A DNA stretch of 64,000 nt from Bacillota bacterium (GTDB lineage Bacteria > Bacillota > Sulfobacillia > JACIYH01). Shown piece by piece: positions 45,897 through 56,168 of the stretch. Below the pieces are notes generated by a model, which searched no databases, was not told the DNA's origin, and worked only from the letters and a program-made list of their open reading frames with translations. The stretch lies in NCBI GenBank assembly GCA_030019365.1, contig JASEFA010000007.1:1-64000 (forward strand), given 5' to 3'. The position numbers were made by a program, and so were the translations under genes. Numbering within the stretch: position 1 is the stretch's first letter; each line of letters starts with the position of its first letter.

Positions 45897-46724
45897 TTAA
45901 GCTCCAGGCATGGCGCCCCTTCTCCCGGCCGCCGCCTCCACCAGGGCCCGGAAGATAGCCAGCATGGGGGGTCGGCCGAGCATGCGTTCGGGGTGAAACT
46001 GCAGCCCGACGATCCAGGCACCCTCCGCCTCGATGGCTTCGATGATCCCATCCGGTGCCCGGGCGGCCACCCGGAAGCCGGGGGCCACCCGGCGCACGGC
46101 CTGCCGGTGAAACGAGTTCACGGCCAGGTCGGGCCGTCCGCCCGCCTCTGGCCGTCCGCCCGGCTCTGGCCGCCCGCCCGGCTCCTGCCCCTCGACCGGC
46201 TCCCGCGCAGAGGGCTGGCCCAGCGCTCTTTCCAGCAGCGTTCCTCCTTCCACCCGGACGCCATGGGCGGGGATCTCGCCCGGCTGGGGCCACTGCTGGT
46301 GCTCCAGGGTACCCGGGCACTCCGCGGCCAGGGCGCGGTAGGTACTGCCCCCGTATACCTCATTTATGGTCTGCATGCCCCGGCATATCCCCAGGATGGG
46401 GAGCCCGCGGGCGCGGGCCACCCTTATGTAGGCGCTGTCCGATTCGTACCGCCGGGGGTTTATCTCCCGCAACTCCGGAAGCAGGGGCTGTTCCAGCAGG
46501 CGGGCCGGCAGGGGGCCGCCGCCTGTGACCAGCAGCCCGTGCAGGTGGGCCATCAGCCCGGAAGCATCCTCCTCATCAAGGACCGGGAGCAGCACCGGCC
46601 ATCCTCCCGCCACCTCTACCACCCGCACGTATTCCTGGCGGACGTAGTACAGGGCCGCACCAGGCTGCAGGCTGTCCTCGTCGCCCCAGTCGGACGAGAC
46701 CGTCACCCCGATGAGCGGCTTCAC
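45897..46724 (-). CDS. PuuD-type gamma-glutamyl hydrolase (class I glutamine amidotransferase-like)
   Basis: 275 residues. [13 protein letters not shown] opens the peptidase C26 family. GLLVTGGG is the oxyanion region, [20 protein letters not shown] carries the nucleophile Cys, and [11 protein letters not shown] the catalytic His with Glu. These enzymes cleave gamma-glutamyl amides such as gamma-glutamyl-GABA. A low-complexity insertion of tandem [12 protein letters not shown] units (about residues 180-205, DNA near 46135-46200) lies on the surface between core strands. GTG 46724 overlaps the oppF stop (GTGA), so it is the last gene of the peptide operon. It may process imported gamma-glutamyl or peptidoglycan-derived peptides. 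Confidence 0.88.
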
Positions 46725-47761
46725 GTCCCGGTTCCCTCCCTGGAGTAGAGATGGCAGGCTACCCGGTGGGCGGTGCGATCCTGTCCGGCGACGGTCACCA
46801 GCGCCGGCACCTCGTTCTCGCAGCCGGGCTGCCGGCTCGGGCAGCGGGTGTGAAACCTGCACCCGGAGGGCGGATCGATGGGGGTGGGAACAGTGCCCTG
46901 CAGGATGATCCTCTGCCGTCGATAGGTGCGCTCCACGCTGGGGATGGCAGAAAGCAGGGCCTGGGTGTAAGGATGCAGGGGGTGGGCGAACAGCTCCCCC
47001 GTAGGGGCAATCTCCACCACCTTCCCCAGGTACATCACCGCCACCCGGTGGCTGACGTGAAACACCACGCTGAGGTCGTGGGCAATGAACAGGTAGGCCA
47101 GGCCCAGGTCAGCCTGGAGCTCCTGCAGCAGGTTGACTATCTGGGCCTGCACGGAAACGTCCAGGGAAGAGAGAGGCTCGTCGGCCACCACGAACCTGGG
47201 ACGCATGGCCAGGGCTCGCGCCACCCCGATACGCTGGCGCTGACCACCGCTGAACTGATGGGGGTACTGATCGATGTGGCGCTCGTTGAGCCCAACCCGC
47301 CGCAGGAGCACCACTGTTTCCGCCTCCCGCTCGCCCAGAGGGACACCCCGCTGGGCCAGGGCCACTCCGATGATCTGACGCACGGTGTGGCGCGGGTTGA
47401 GAGAGCTGTACGGATTCTGGAAGATGATCTGGACTTCCCGGCGCAGTACGCGCGGACTCAAGCTGCCCGGGCCCCACAGGGGCTGTCCCGCGAACCAGAC
47501 CTGGCCGGCAGTGGGAGGATACAGGCCCACCACGGTGCGTCCCAGGGTGGTCTTGCCGCATCCCGACTCCCCCACCAACCCCAGTGTCTCCCCCGGGAAG
47601 ACCTCCAGGTCTACCTCATCGACAGCCCGTACCGTTCGGTCGCGAGCTCCCGCCATCAGGCGGGCGAGCACGGTGCTGCGCAGGGGGAAATGCTTGGTCA
47701 GGCCGCGGGCCCGCATCAGGGCCTGGCCATCGGCCGGGAGCCCTGCTTCAGGAGCCGGCAA
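46721..47761 (-). CDS. oppF: Oligopeptide/dipeptide ABC transporter ATPase OppF/DppF
   Basis: About 346 residues. [20 protein letters not shown] is Walker [19 protein letters not shown] and [19 protein letters not shown] the Q-loop and signature, [17 protein letters not shown] Walker B. The Cys-rich C-terminal region ([17 protein letters not shown]) is the Opp/Dpp hallmark that can hold an Fe-S cluster. The start is set at TTG 47761, eight bases after GGGAGG; ATG 47716 ([10 protein letters not shown]) is an alternative. It powers peptide uptake with OppD. Confidence 0.94.
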
Positions 47762-48824
47762 CAGCCACACCTCCCGTAGCGTGCCTGAGGCAACGCGCCA
47801 CTCTCCCCCGACCCACCGGCGCCAGCGGGGGAGGCTCCCTCTCGCAGTCCCCCAGCCGCACATCGCAGCGGGGGAAGAAGGCACAGCCCGGTGCCAGGTG
47901 GGCCAGATCGGGCACCACGCCCGGGATGGGGACCAGCCGCCGCCTTTCCGTCAACCTGGGGATGGAGCGCAGCAGGCCGCGGGTGTACGGGTGCGTGGGG
48001 TCTTCCAGGACGGCCTCGGTGCTGCCCCACTCCACGATCTGGCCCGCGTACATCACCGCTATCTCGTGGCAGAACTCGGCCGCCACCGCCAGGTCGTGAG
48101 TCACCAGGATGATGGCGGTGCCGCGGTCCCGGTTGATCCGTCTCATGAGGTCCAGGATCTGGGCCTGGATGGTGACGTCCAGGGCCGTGGTGGGCTCGTC
48201 GGCCAGAAGCAGGGCCGGCCGGCAGGCCAGGGCGATGGCGATGAGCACCCGCTGCTGCATACCACCGCTGAACTGGTGGGGGTACTCCAGGTGACGGGTA
48301 TCCGGCGACGGTATGCCCACCTCCCGCATGAGGGCCAGTACCATCTCCCGCTCCCGGCGCCGGTGCTTTCCCAGCAGGCTGGCGGGAAATCCGGGCAGCA
48401 GCCCGTGTACCCGCAGGGACTCGGCGATCTGGTCTCCCACCCGGTAGGCGGGATTGAGGGTGGACATGGGATCCTGGAACACCATGGCGATGTCCCTGCC
48501 CCGGATGCCCCGCATCTGGGCGGGGGTCTTCCTGAGCAGGTCCTCCCCCTGGAAGCGGACCTCGCCCGCCACCACTTTCCCCGGGTGGGGAACCAGGCGC
48601 ATGATGGAGAGTAAAGTGGCACTCTTTCCGCAGCCGGATTCTCCCACCAGCCCCAGGATACCTCCCCGCCCCAGCTGCAGGGAGACATCGCGCACCGCCT
48701 GCACCCTCCCCTTTTCCGTCGGGTAGACGGTGCTCAGGCCCCGCGCGTCCAGGAGGGGAACCTCCTCCGGCGGGACCTCGCGGGTGCGCCCAGCCAGCGC
48801 ACCGGTGTGCGGAAGCGTCTCCAT
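47748..48824 (-). CDS. oppD: Oligopeptide/dipeptide ABC transporter ATPase OppD/DppD
   Basis: 358 residues. [20 protein letters not shown] is Walker [19 protein letters not shown] the Q-loop, [18 protein letters not shown] the signature and [19 protein letters not shown] Walker B. The C-terminal Cys region [17 protein letters not shown] is present. ATG 48824 has GAAGGTGG upstream and begins two bases after the oppC stop. It forms a heterodimeric ATPase with the next gene product. Confidence 0.95.
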
Positions 48825-48826
48825 CT

Positions 48827-49687
48827 TCAATCCACCTTCAGCCGGGGATCCAGGAGATCGCGCAGGGCCTCTCCCAGCAGGTTGATGGACAACACCAGGA
48901 TCACCAGGGCCAGCCCGGGCAGGGTCGATACCCACCATGCCGTCATCATGTAGCGGTGCCCGTCGTTGACCATGGATCCCCAGGCGGGAATGCGGGGCGG
49001 GATGCCCAGTCCCAGGAAGCTCAGCGAGGATTCCATGACGATCATGTTACCCATGCGCAGCGTGCCCAGCACCAGGATGGAGTGAACGATGTTGGGAAGG
49101 ATCTCGGAGACGATGATGGCCAGATGGGAGCGACCCAGGGCCCGGGCGGCTTCCACGTACTCTCTGGTCTTCTCGGACATGACCTCCGCCCGCGCCAGCC
49201 GGTAGAACTCCACCCACCCCTTGAAGCTCAAGGCCCAGATCAGGTTCCAGAACCCCGGGCCGATCATCGCCATGGCCCCGATGGCGAATATGAGATAGGG
49301 AAACGCCAGGAGGAGATCGGCGAAGCGGGAAAGCACCTCGTCGAAGGGCCCCCGGAAGTAGCCCGCCGCCGTCCCCAGCCCGGTACCCACCACCACCGAG
49401 ATGAGAATGGTGAGCAGCCCCACCAGCAGGGAAACCCGCGCCCCGTATATCACGCGGGAGAGGATGTCCCGCCCCAGCTGATCCGTGCCCAGGGGGAACT
49501 CCCCCGTCCAGGTGGGAGCCCGGAGGCGCTCGGCCAGCCGGACCCTCTCCGGAGAATGGGGGGCCACCCAGGGAGCCAGGACGGCAGCCGCCACGTAGGC
49601 CAGTATCACCACTGCTCCCACGACGGCGCTGGGGTGACGGGCCAGCTTACGCAGGAAAGCCCCCAGATTGCGCAGGGACATCCCCAC
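48827..49687 (-). CDS. oppC: Oligopeptide/dipeptide ABC transporter permease OppC/DppC
   Basis: 286 residues with six membrane helices. FPLGTDQLGRDILSRVIYGA is the DppC/OppC signature, and the EAA loop is REYVEAARALGRSHLAIIVS. SSLSFLGLGIPPRIPAWGSM is the typical C-terminal part. It pairs with OppB to form the channel. The start is 49687, with ATG 49681 as an alternative. Confidence 0.95.
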   Translation of the reverse strand: MGMSLRNLGAFLRKLARHPSAVVGAVVILAYVAAAVLAPWVAPHSPERVRLAERLRAPTWTGEFPLGTDQLGRDILSRVIYGARVSLLVGLLTILISVVVGTGLGTAAGYFRGPFDEVLSRFADLLLAFPYLIFAIGAMAMIGPGFWNLIWALSFKGWVEFYRLARAEVMSEKTREYVEAARALGRSHLAIIVSEILPNIVHSILVLGTLRMGNMIVMESSLSFLGLGIPPRIPAWGSMVNDGHRYMMTAWWVSTLPGLALVILVLSINLLGEALRDLLDPRLKVD

Positions 49688-49765: not shown

Positions 49766-50776
49766 TCACAGGCTGATCCTGGGGTTGAGGTAAGTGTACA
49801 GCACGTCCGTGGCGAGATTGACCAGCACGAAGGTAAGGGCATACACCATCACCGACCCCTGCACCAGAGGGTAGTCACGGGCGAAGATGGCGTCCACCAC
49901 CAGCCGGCCCAGTCCCGGCCAGCCGAAGATGGTCTCCACGATCATATTGCCGCCCAGCAGGGTTCCCACCTGCAAGCCCACCACCGTGACCGTGGGGATG
50001 AGGGCGTTGCGCAGGGCGTGGCGAATGATAACCGCCCGCTCCGCCACCCCCTTGGCCCGGGCCAGGAGCACATAGTCGGTGCGGAGCACCTCCAGCATGC
50101 TCGACCGCACCACCCGGGCCACCACTGCCGCCACGCCGGCCCCCAGGGTGACCGAGGGCAGCACCAGGTGCCGCAGGGCATCCCCCAGGGCGGGGAGATT
50201 GGCCGTGAGCAGGGCATCCACCACGAACAGCCCCGTGATGGTGTGCGGTTGCAGGCCGTACGCGACGCGTCCCGAGGTGGGAAACCATCCCAGATGCAGG
50301 GAAAACACGATGATACAGATGATCCCCAGCCAAAAGGCGGGCATGGAGATACCCAGAAAGGCGCCCGCCATGCTGGCCCGGTCCAGCACGGAATACTGAC
50401 GGACGGCGGAGACCACCCCGATGGGCAGAGCCACCACCAGGGCAAACAGCAGGGAGAATACGGCCAGCTCCACCGTGGCCGGGATGGTCTCCGCGATGAC
50501 GTCGATCACCGGGCGGGAGCGAAATATGGAGTAACCCAGGTCCCCGCGCGCCAGCCGTCCCAGGTAGAGGGCAAGCTGCACCGGCAGTGGCTTGTCGAGA
50601 TGAAACTGCGCCCGCAGCATCTCGATCTCCGCCTGCGACACTCCCCCGGCCTCCCCGATCATGATGTCCACCGGGTCGCCGGGCATGAAGCGCATGAAGG
50701 CGAAGACCACCACGGCGATACCCACCGTGATGGGTATGGCCGCCAGGACCCGCTCCAGTATCCGTACTCCCCGCAC
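49766..50776 (-). CDS. oppB: Oligopeptide/dipeptide ABC transporter permease OppB/DppB
   Basis: 336 residues with six membrane helices. FAFMRFMPGDPVDIM opens it, LPVQLALYLGRLARGDLG marks the periplasmic start, and the EAA loop is TDYVLLARAKGVAERAVIIR. ETIFGWPGLGRLVVDAIFAR and DYPLVQGSVMVYALTFVL are typical. Its product forms the peptide channel with OppC. The gene lies 12 bases after oppA. Confidence 0.95.
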   Translation of the reverse strand: MRGVRILERVLAAIPITVGIAVVVFAFMRFMPGDPVDIMIGEAGGVSQAEIEMLRAQFHLDKPLPVQLALYLGRLARGDLGYSIFRSRPVIDVIAETIPATVELAVFSLLFALVVALPIGVVSAVRQYSVLDRASMAGAFLGISMPAFWLGIICIIVFSLHLGWFPTSGRVAYGLQPHTITGLFVVDALLTANLPALGDALRHLVLPSVTLGAGVAAVVARVVRSSMLEVLRTDYVLLARAKGVAERAVIIRHALRNALIPTVTVVGLQVGTLLGGNMIVETIFGWPGLGRLVVDAIFARDYPLVQGSVMVYALTFVLVNLATDVLYTYLNPRISL

Positions 50777-50788
50777 CGCAATCCCCCG

Positions 50789-52369
50789 TTACTTGACGGT
50801 GTATCCTGCTTCCTTCAGCAGCTCCTTTGCCTTGCCGGGATCATACGGATAGGGCTTCAGGTCGGGGTTGAACCCGAACCCGCTGGGCAGGAAACACGTT
50901 GCCAACCGGGTAGCCCCGCCCCCGTACACGGTCTTCAGGATCTCGTCCCAGTTTACGGCGTAGTTCATGGCCTCGCGCACCCGCACGTCGTCAAAGGGAG
51001 GCTTGGCGTAGTTCATCTCTACCGCATAGACCCGGGTACCCTGCACCTTCTTGACCTGCACCTTGGGGTCTTTCTCCAGGTCGGCGGCCATATCGGGTGG
51101 CACCATCTGGATGACGTGGACCTCCCCGGCCTTGAGGGCGGCTATGCGGGTGGCGGGATCGGGCATCATGCGGAATATCACCCGCTTGGCGGGCGCCGGG
51201 CCCACCGGGGGCAGGTCGGGCGAGCCGCCGTAGTACCCGTCAAAGCGCTCCAGCACGATCTGGTCGTCCAGCCGGCCTTCCTTGAACTTGAAGGGACCGC
51301 AGCCCACCGGCTTCTCGGCGAACTTCTGGTCCCCCACCTTCTTGATGTAATCTTTGGGCACGATCTGGAAGTGGACCAGAGCCTGCAGGAAGACGGGGAA
51401 GGGGTTCTTGAGAGTGAAGCGCACCGTGTAGGGATCGACCTTCTCCACCTTCTCCAGGGGACCCAGCAGGCCCTTGCGGGGCGAGGACTGGCCCCCCACC
51501 GCCCCCTCCTGCAGGATACGCTCGAAGGTGAACACCACGTCGTCGGCATCCAGGGTCTCGCCATTGTGGAACTTGATGCCCTTCCGGATCTTGAACTCGT
51601 AGATGTTGGCAGCCGGGTTGGCCCAGGACTCCGCGATCTCCGGGACCACCTTACCGTCCCAGGTGCGGGTGACCAGGCCGTCGAAGATGTTGCGGATCAC
51701 CGTTTCGGTGTCCCGCTCCCGGTGCATGGCCGGGTCGAGGGTGACGATCTTGTTGGTCTTCATCCCCACTACAATGGTGTCCCCGCCCTTGAGCGACACG
51801 TCATGCAGGTTGATGCGGGAATCCATGCTGGGCTGCCAGTTCCGGATATTCGCGGAGGCAGCCTCGACTTCGTCCCGGAAGTACCCGAACACCCAGGGAA
51901 CGTCTTTGTACAGAATGTCCTGCGCCTTGAAGTAGGCCTCCTTGCGGGTGGCTTCGTCGATGCTGGTCAGCGCCTTGTCCATGCAGGCATCGAACTCGGC
52001 GTTGCTGTAGAAGGAGTAATTGCCTCGATCCTTCGTCTTCAGCTTGGGCACTGCCAGATCGAATGGGTCGAAGTAGGCGCTGCCCCAGTCGGTGAGGTAC
52101 ATCTGACGCTCACCGGCCAGGATCTTTTCTTTCATGGCGCTCCATTCCCACACCCGCACCTCAGCCTGCACGCCGATCTCGCGCAGGTTGGCGGCGATGG
52201 CCTCCGCCTCGTCCTTCCGGTTGGCCTCGCTGTCGATCACCACAGACAGGGTCTTGCCCGTCGGCTCGGGGGTGGTCGCCTCCTTCTTCGCGCAGCCCGG
52301 CAGCATCAGGCCCGCCGCCAGCACCAGCAGCACCACCCAGTACCAGGCTCGCTCCACGCCTTTCCGCAT
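50789..52369 (-). CDS. oppA: Family-5 peptide-binding lipoprotein with circularly permuted order
   Basis: 526 residues. A signal peptide ends in the lipobox LMLPGC (Cys26). Then comes sequence that belongs at the C terminus in DppA/OppA: IAANLREIGVQAEVRVWEWS (about 57-77), MYLTDWGSAYFDPF, RKEAYFKAQDILYKDVPWVF and WQPSMDSRINLHDVSL (to about 193). At about 195 the normal N terminus starts: DTIVVGMKTNKIVTLDPAMH, VIRNIFDGLVTRTWDGKVVP, IRKGIKFHNGETLDADDVVF. It continues to the usual middle and late region (PFDDVRVREAMNYAVNWDEI) and ends at YDPGKAKELLKEAGYTVK, exactly where a normal protein would go on to the sequence found at the N terminus. It should bind peptides for OppBCDF. Confidence 0.9.
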   Translation of the reverse strand: MRKGVERAWYWVVLLVLAAGLMLPGCAKKEATTPEPTGKTLSVVIDSEANRKDEAEAIAANLREIGVQAEVRVWEWSAMKEKILAGERQMYLTDWGSAYFDPFDLAVPKLKTKDRGNYSFYSNAEFDACMDKALTSIDEATRKEAYFKAQDILYKDVPWVFGYFRDEVEAASANIRNWQPSMDSRINLHDVSLKGGDTIVVGMKTNKIVTLDPAMHRERDTETVIRNIFDGLVTRTWDGKVVPEIAESWANPAANIYEFKIRKGIKFHNGETLDADDVVFTFERILQEGAVGGQSSPRKGLLGPLEKVEKVDPYTVRFTLKNPFPVFLQALVHFQIVPKDYIKKVGDQKFAEKPVGCGPFKFKEGRLDDQIVLERFDGYYGGSPDLPPVGPAPAKRVIFRMMPDPATRIAALKAGEVHVIQMVPPDMAADLEKDPKVQVKKVQGTRVYAVEMNYAKPPFDDVRVREAMNYAVNWDEILKTVYGGGATRLATCFLPSGFGFNPDLKPYPYDPGKAKELLKEAGYTVK

Positions 52370-52561
52370 GCTCCTCCCTCCCTGGCCTTATTGTCCTCCC
52401 GGTCCCCTGCCCGGGTGCAAAAGGAGCAGCCTCCCAGGCAGGGGCACTGGTAGTGACCTGTTATAACCGAGTAGACGTTACCTTCGCTATCTTCCCGCCG
52501 TTTTCCTGCCCCGGGAATCGACAGGCCGGGCCGAAAGACGTGTCGCCGGACCGGCCGTCGT
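52370..52561. other. Gap between ddl-like gene and oppA
   Basis: 192 bases. It holds the upstream region of oppA (GGGAGGGAG ribosome binding site). A GTTATAACA near 52459 could be a -10, but I see no convincing -35. Confidence 0.4.
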
Positions 52562-54249: not shown

Positions 54250-55731
54250 TCAGTCGCGGCCCTGCTTCACCGCCTCGATGGCTTCGTCAAGCGACATGCC
54301 CCGGGCTACCAGTTGCCTGAGCCTGTCCAAAGCCTGCTCCTTGCTCACCCTCACCATCAGGGCAGCATACGCCCTCGCGTTCATCACCGTGTAAATCCGC
54401 TTCTTGGGCACGAATACCGCCAGCGTGTACCCCAAAAGATAGCTCTGCCGCCCCCTGACCCTCATCTCCACCCGCAACCGCTCCACATCTTGCGGCCTCT
54501 TCATCTCGTAGATCTTCACCGCGTTGTACAGCACCATCAGCATCACAACCTGCGCCCAGATCGCACAAAGCTTCCGCCCTACCGGCGTCCTCACCCGCCA
54601 CTCCTGACTCAGCTCCCTGATCCCCTCGTTCTCCACCGTCCACCGCCGCCCATACTCCTCCACCCACCTGCCCGCCCTCCGCCCCAATGGCAGGGTGGTC
54701 ACGTAAACCCACTCGTGCACCTCGCCAGTGCGCTTGTCCACCTCCCGCGCCAGCACCGCATTCACCCGGATGGCACCACCCCCAGAACGGTACTCCACAC
54801 CGGGTATCCCCGCCACCTCCAACACCTTCACCCGCGGCCTCCTCTTGCCCCCCTTGCGCACCTCCACCTCCTCAGGCCGATGCTCTGCCAACCGCGCCAG
54901 CCCCCGCACGTCCTCCACCAGGTCTACGTTCGAGGGCACCAGGGTCAGATAATCGATACCGTACTCTTCCTTCAGACGGCTCAGGAACCGCGCTCCCCAG
55001 TACCCCCGGTCCAAAATGAGTAGCTCGATCATCTCCCGCACAGGACATACCCGCCGGGAAATCTCATCCAAAATGCGCAAAAGAAGCACCCTCTCGTCTG
55101 TCCCCAGCGGACCCATCGCCACCCCCACGATCCGCTCCCTCTCCTCGCACACATTAAGTAAGATCACCACCTTGTACCCCCGCAGATGCCGCCCATCCCC
55201 ATCACAAGCCTCCCCCACCCCCTCGTACGTTTTGCCCTCCACCTCAATGGTGAACCCATCCGCCGCATACACCTTGCCCCTGATCCACCTCTTCCCGCGC
55301 ATGAGCTTTACCGCCTCGTAAAACACCCTGCTGCTCTCTTCCACTCTCACCCGCTTCAGATGGTTGCGCAGCGTGTCCTCGTGTACCACCCCCCTGTCCT
55401 CCGCTTCCACCTCCTTCACCTCTTCTACCGTGAACCCAACCTCCATCAGCAACTTGCCATCACGCAGCACCGGCCCCGCCCGCGCAAGATGGCCAAGGTG
55501 CATGAGGTCGAACAAAATCAACAGCCCGTTCAGCCGACGGTAGTCCTCCCCATTGCGCTTCTTCAGATGCGGCTGCAGCGAAACCAGAACCTCCCAGAAG
55601 CCCGCCTCCCGCAAAAACTCCACTAAATGCTCGTTCTTGCCATACTCACTCTCCACCACTAGGTGGCGCTCGCCACTGGCCACCGCCGCCCGCACACCAT
55701 CATCGTCCCGCCCGTACACCACGTATCCCAT
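54250..55731 (-). CDS. DDE transposase (IS4/IS1634-like)
   Basis: 493 residues. The likely triad is Asp in VYAADGFTIEVEGKTYEG (about 155), Asp in IELLILDRGYWGARFLSRLK (about 240) and Glu in WTVENEGIRELSQEW (about 385), the last like the YxxxxE of IS4 members. The N-terminal region has DYRRLNGLLILFDLMHLGHL and a helical DNA-binding look. The C terminus MSLDEAIEAVKQGRD is charged. No internal stop is seen, so the copy may be active. It begins one base after the upstream partner gene's stop. Confidence 0.85.
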   Translation of the reverse strand: MGYVVYGRDDDGVRAAVASGERHLVVESEYGKNEHLVEFLREAGFWEVLVSLQPHLKKRNGEDYRRLNGLLILFDLMHLGHLARAGPVLRDGKLLMEVGFTVEEVKEVEAEDRGVVHEDTLRNHLKRVRVEESSRVFYEAVKLMRGKRWIRGKVYAADGFTIEVEGKTYEGVGEACDGDGRHLRGYKVVILLNVCEERERIVGVAMGPLGTDERVLLLRILDEISRRVCPVREMIELLILDRGYWGARFLSRLKEEYGIDYLTLVPSNVDLVEDVRGLARLAEHRPEEVEVRKGGKRRPRVKVLEVAGIPGVEYRSGGGAIRVNAVLAREVDKRTGEVHEWVYVTTLPLGRRAGRWVEEYGRRWTVENEGIRELSQEWRVRTPVGRKLCAIWAQVVMLMVLYNAVKIYEMKRPQDVERLRVEMRVRGRQSYLLGYTLAVFVPKKRIYTVMNARAYAALMVRVSKEQALDRLRQLVARGMSLDEAIEAVKQGRD

Positions 55732-56112
55732 TCACTCTCCCTCCCCCCATTCCACCCTCCGCAGACGCTCAACCACGTCAAACAACTCCTCAATTTCACC
55801 CGTCAGTTCCCGAATCCGCTGCCTCGCCTGGCGCAACTCCCTGTGCCGCCTCAAAAGCACCTTCAGCTGCCGCACCTCCTTCTTGGCCACGTACCGCATC
55901 CGGGTCCGCCCATCTACCTTCTGGGACAGGTAATGGTACGGCCCGTGCTTCTCACCTCGCTTGCACCTGCAACCGGCCTTCCCACACGTCCGGTATTGCT
56001 CCACCAAAGACCCCTCCATAAACGGCCCGACCCTCATCACCCGATCCTCCCACCAGCCTCGTTCCCTCCGCAACCCGTCAATCACCTGCCGCACCCGGCT
56101 CAGTTCCTCCAC
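55732..56112 (-). CDS. DUF6788-like small protein paired with the transposase
   Basis: 126 residues from GTG 56112, which has GGAGGTGG upstream; a longer ATG start at 56163 would run into the inverted repeat. The core GSLVEQYRTCGKAGCRCKRG followed by EKHGPYHYLSQKVDGRTRMR is a compact Cys-containing motif typical of DUF6788. It is followed by a long helix (LLRRHRELRQARQRIRELTG). Such proteins occur next to transposases, and the CxxxxCxC cluster may bind zinc. The role in transposition is unknown. Confidence 0.8.
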   Translation of the reverse strand: MEELSRVRQVIDGLRRERGWWEDRVMRVGPFMEGSLVEQYRTCGKAGCRCKRGEKHGPYHYLSQKVDGRTRMRYVAKKEVRQLKVLLRRHRELRQARQRIRELTGEIEELFDVVERLRRVEWGEGE

Positions 56113-56131
56113 CAGCGGCCACCTCCACCAT

Positions 56132-56168
56132 ATCCTGTGTGTTATGATTAAACAGGCGCACACAGGAT
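56132..56168. repeat. 10-bp inverted repeat with 17-base loop
   Basis: ATCCTGTGTG (56132-56141) and CACACAGGAT (56159-56168). It lies just upstream of the DUF6788-like start and could be a promoter operator or part of the element's end. Confidence 0.6.

Follow-up and report, generated by a model that had tools for sequence, protein, structure and literature searches.

The window analysed here, a stretch of 64,000 nucleotides from a genome of the Bacillota class Sulfobacillia (assembly GCA_030019365.1, contig JASEFA010000007.1), carries on its minus strand an operon of the oligopeptide/dipeptide importer type. The gene at its head (50789..52369, minus), with an ATG start and a TAA stop, encodes a lipoprotein of 526 amino acids from the family-5 substrate-binding proteins (SBP_bac_5), with its segments in permuted order. 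An RBS-like sequence, GGGAGGGAGGAG (52371..52382, minus), is read directly 5' of the ATG, and the protein begins with a signal peptide (52292..52369, minus) that ends with the lipobox LPGC at Cys26. The genes that follow, all on the minus strand, encode an OppB/DppB-type permease (49766..50776), assigned by Pfam BPD_transp_1 and by synteny, an OppC/DppC-type permease (48827..49687; Pfam OppC_N and BPD_transp_1), and two ATPases, one of the OppD type (47748..48938) and one of the OppF type (46721..47884), both with Pfam ABC_tran and oligo_HPY and both with a true start that may lie downstream. An earlier note on this DNA had described an intact opp operon with the signal peptide and lipobox placed ahead of the permuted part, and the LPGC motif, the two BPD_transp_1 matches and the two ABC_tran matches bear this out; export signal and operon are those of an SBP_bac_5 protein. 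The final gene of the run encodes a Peptidase C26/class I glutamine amidotransferase (45897..46862, minus; Pfam PF07722). A homolog of this enzyme is found near several orthologous operons, permuted and un-permuted alike, and these neighbours give a weak lead that the ligand might be a gamma-glutamyl or similar peptide. Close upstream of the operon lies a DDE_Tnp_1 transposase (window 54250-55731), with an ORF of 143 amino acids (55732-56163) before it. On the plus strand, an open frame of 811 amino acids (window 50018-52453) lies opposite the binding-protein gene and a portion of OppB; it most likely results from the GC-rich codon pattern.

A normal-order profile, with mature E. coli DppA as reference, assigns residues 37-194 of the window protein (51788..52261, minus) to DppA 342-507, the normal C-terminal third, and residues 196-524 (50798..51784, minus) to DppA 1-341, the normal N-terminal two thirds. 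The old C terminus is joined to the old N terminus at residue 195 (51785..51787, minus), with at most one residue between them in the profile alignment. The same reversal is seen with the Pfam SBP_bac_5 profile, in which protein residues 36-112 match profile positions 281-363 and residues 240-524 match positions 1-279, and with HMMER against PDB 6ofq, where residues 36-161 align to 370-499 and residues 209-523 to 42-369. The homology itself is strong, at 311.5 bits against a Pfam gathering cut-off of 32.4, and the E-values of 1e-92 in Pfam and of 1e-10 for the short half on its own rule out a chance match. Since profile positions 281-363 stand before 1-279, the protein departs from the canonical N-to-C order and is a permuted variant rather than a canonical SBP_bac_5 member. 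Rearranged to the normal order, it aligns with un-permuted orthologs free of gaps and overlap at the cut. By these alignments the permutation is complete, with every normal segment present once, none lost and none duplicated, so that both segments are whole, their order is reversed and the old termini are joined, as expected of a natural circular permutant. The earlier note had read C-terminal sequence directly after Cys26, a junction at about residue 195 (DNA near 51787) and a chain end at a point that lies mid-protein in the normal order; the DppA mapping places the junction exactly there and ends the second part at DppA 341. The separate alignment of the two halves that it had proposed gave matches to SBP_bac_5 and DppA in reversed order, and the first 195 residues, which could instead have been the N-terminal lobe of a longer family, match the C-terminal third of SBP_bac_5.

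Structure prediction, also proposed in that note, supports one intact fold. From an alignment that combined permuted full-length rows with the N and C fragments of normal homologs as rows of their own, AlphaFold2 modelled the permuted chain with a pLDDT of 93.1 and a pTM of 0.87; the contacts of one half with the other are supported by six full-length rows and by what the network itself has learned. The six-row alignment alone gave a pLDDT of 48, and an alignment heavy in N fragments was discarded because it misplaced the C fragments. Foldseek and VIA-align, both sequential, matched residues ~193-526 to the N-terminal ~320-390 residues in family-5 chains; VIA-align placed residues 195-526 on 3-323 of 1uqw (318 residues, rmsd 1.6, Z 28), and residues 197-526 matched 1-343 of 1dpp. 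With the second part (195-526) superposed, the TM score over the whole chain was ~0.5, which is expected when a permutant is aligned sequentially. No PDB chain among the best 60 matched across the junction.

The same order had also been sought in relatives, and it recurs widely. Orthologs with the permuted order and the same junction, 43-95% identical, occupy the same oppABCD operon in about 40 genomes. Of 154 genomes in the window's class, 22 have a permuted ortholog, with 46-95% identity across the junction; eight further matches at 30-38% comprise seven divergent permuted paralogs and one protein of normal order (L144). Further permuted orthologs come from other classes of the phylum. Named MAGs share the order, and so does Ca. 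Fermentithermobacillus carboniphilus, whose chromosome (CP062796) is complete. Against two same-genus genomes dN/dS was 0.05 and 0.09, with similar values in both parts; the permuted form is under purifying selection and is maintained in many species. The lipobox is also present in the same-genus orthologs. Orthologs of the same clade at L021, L022, L024, L026 and L187-L194 have an ordinary signal peptide without the lipobox Cys, and appear to be secreted via signal peptidase I with no lipid anchor. In one genome (G026; L104/L123) the frame of the ortholog is split by an internal TAG and is possibly a pseudogene or a sequencing error.

Un-permuted orthologs stand in the same A-B-C-D operon. 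A search of the phylum gave four normal-order proteins (L165-L168) that are 61-62% identical to the window protein in the N part and 56-58% in the C part, and others (L169-L177, L179) at 55-62%; their OppB and OppC are ~57-66% identical to those of the window. Taken together, the un-permuted orthologs (L165-L179, L027; 45-62% identity) resemble the window's locus in operon, conserved permeases and ATPase, and differ from it in their normal N-to-C order. Their presence in the same operon and their clean alignment at the cut indicate that the permutation happened within an orthologous operon, where, on this comparison, the permuted form replaces the un-permuted ortholog.

The possibility that the order is an artefact, with halves of neighbouring genes joined wrongly in assembly or annotation, comes to mind as the window's genome is a draft of 27 contigs and the gene sits at contig ends in a relative (G352). 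We regard it as negligible: misassembly is excluded in practice, since some 40 other genomes, a number of which consist of one contig, have the same order and junction at 43-95% identity, and the low dN/dS argues against it as well. It is also very improbable that the gene is a degenerate, non-working chimera of a C-terminal fragment from one paralog and an N-terminal fragment from another. The window's genome has 19 family-5 genes among which such recombination could take place, but both halves are closest to one and the same un-permuted ortholog group, the join is residue-exact, both parts are under purifying selection and the predicted fold is confident. The direction and the number of changes inside the ortholog group deserve more caution. 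The OppA tree unites 24 permuted rows (81/99), leaving the normal rows outside and permuted L140 apart, whereas the OppB+C tree nests the normal rows beside permuted L130 and L140 (90-91% support) and forces one change. The OppB+C placement, with only that one change forced, could mean that the permuted order is ancestral here, the normal-order proteins (L165-L179) being reversions and the window protein not derived. This we consider unlikely, given the grouping in the OppA tree and the normal order in all the outgroup operons (L027, L178, L180, L181).

Permutation in this family extends beyond one ortholog group. Segment order was scored with profiles of four segments, S1S2S3S4 being the normal order, and cuts were mapped on DppA. 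Four circular orders were found besides the normal one, with cuts near DppA 341, 209, 436 and ~100. Most permuted proteins have the cut at 341|342 (type A), among them the window protein, L145, L182 and L014. The last (G000:C4:169504-171093) is a second permuted SBP_bac_5 lipoprotein of the window's own genome, 27% identical to the first, followed by its own permease and placed in a separate clade; two of the 19 SBP_bac_5 proteins of this genome are thus permuted. Type B, cut at 209, comprises L164/L209, L263-L265 and L268-L270, and one genome (G925) has three type B proteins and one type A ortholog. Type C, cut at 434|438, was seen once, in an Oscillospiraceae genome (G569; L230:1619-3464, minus). 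Type D, cut near 100-120, was seen in 8 of 151 sampled Chloroflexota genomes (L241, L245, L247-L253). A junction profile run at E 1e-27 on 200 Pseudomonadota gave no junction-spanning match, which, with its limited sensitivity, is no proof of absence.

The cut shared by most permuted proteins might suggest one ancient permutation behind them all, with the normal proteins that fall among them convergent. We find this hardly credible, because an AU test on the type A rows rejects a single clade of permuted proteins (p 1.6e-60), the cut lies at four different points, and the tree of all types calls for seven changes between normal and permuted order, six of them forced by well-supported branches, and nine changes among all orders, these counts carrying no direction. 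Types B and D are each monophyletic. The sister of type B is the type A clade of L014 (100/98), and type C pairs with a type A protein (100/99); these placements point to a second round of permutation or to a shared ancestor that the tree leaves unresolved. We therefore favour, with good though not complete confidence, repeated permutation of family-5 binding proteins, with at least six changes of order, four cuts, lineages that have apparently been re-permuted, and replacement within orthologous operons.

Taken with the predicted structure, the sequence makes it almost certain that the window protein is a circularly permuted family-5 (cluster C) lipoprotein, which probably works as the substrate-binding component of an ABC importer of the oligopeptide/dipeptide type. 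The usual two-lobe clam fold would be kept by simply joining the normal N and C termini, which would lie next to each other, and the chain would be opened in the loop after the helix ending in KAKELLKEAGY. Ligand capture and delivery to OppBC would proceed as in the un-permuted orthologs. In DppA/OppA structures the normal N terminus belongs to lobe one and DppA position 341 to lobe two. With the permutation, the exit point of the lipid anchor would shift from lobe one to lobe two, giving a different tether geometry towards the permease. The permutation may have arisen in place within the operon; the simplest route, which we put forward as a default guess, would be permutation by duplication (PMC3320104), in which oppA was first duplicated in tandem and the redundant ends were then lost. 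Intermediates of duplication or fission were sought in all retrieved loci and none was seen, nor any ORF with a duplicated segment; single-part ORFs among these loci are contig ends, frameshifts or the one TAG-split gene. At L194 and L191, an apparent remnant of the C part behind the stop turned out to be merely the start of OppB. A decayed family-5 fragment (DppA 111-195) lies ~1.4 kb upstream of the permuted gene at L026:4320-4610 and L185:10086-10301; the S1-like fragment at L026 was considered as an intermediate and set aside, since it looks like another family-5 pseudogene.

Family 5 is among the commonest families of binding proteins and, to our knowledge, natural circular permutations are rare and mostly single cases. 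Several independent permutations within one family show that natural re-wiring of this fold is compatible with its retention by selection. The un-permuted orthologs, at ~60% identity and in the same operon, form a close matched pair with the permuted ones, in which the effects of chain order on folding, secretion, membrane tethering and transport can be asked. The permuted series likewise bears on the natural routes of permutation, namely duplication, and fission and fusion. If the proposal is true, repeated permutation may shift the lipid anchor between lobes, and the family would be a natural permutant series of one fold. The permuted proteins also supply proven cut points on which biosensor design could draw. 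Annotation based on segment order and sequential alignment (Pfam coordinates, Foldseek) capture such proteins only partly.

The nearest reference is E. coli DppA, with the SBP_bac_5 family (PF00496, cluster C). The window protein shares with it all segments, the opp/dpp operon, a lipoprotein or Sec signal and the predicted fold, and differs in running from 342-507 to 1-341. The DppA ligand residues R355 and D408 correspond in the window protein to a gap and to an Ala, and neither is conserved in the un-permuted orthologs; the protein also scores 175 bits with NCBIfam DppA_dipep, against a cut-off of 1005, and so falls outside the dipeptide-binding equivalogs. In the open-access literature we found no description of permuted family-5 proteins. 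Natural permutations have been described in DNA methyltransferases, with documented duplication intermediates, and in saposin/swaposin (PMC3320104), which differ from the present case in being intracellular enzymes or small helical proteins. A parallel among binding proteins is the glucose-binding lipoprotein TpMglB-2 (Tp0684) of Treponema pallidum, which is itself circularly permuted, was solved in 2016 and was termed 'Type Ic / Cluster Bc' (PMC4990184). Like the window protein, it is a naturally permuted ABC substrate-binding lipoprotein, and it still binds its ligand; it differs in that its fold is the sugar-binding one of cluster B, its hinge has a fourth cross-over and its permuted part is poorly conserved (PMC4990184). 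The window protein showed no sequence match to TpMglB-2; Pfam gives SBP_bac_5 only and the best PDB matches are family-5 proteins, which places it outside cluster B. Circularly permuted substrate-binding proteins are thus known already from another fold cluster, and the window protein and its relatives add family 5, for which our search gave no earlier description.
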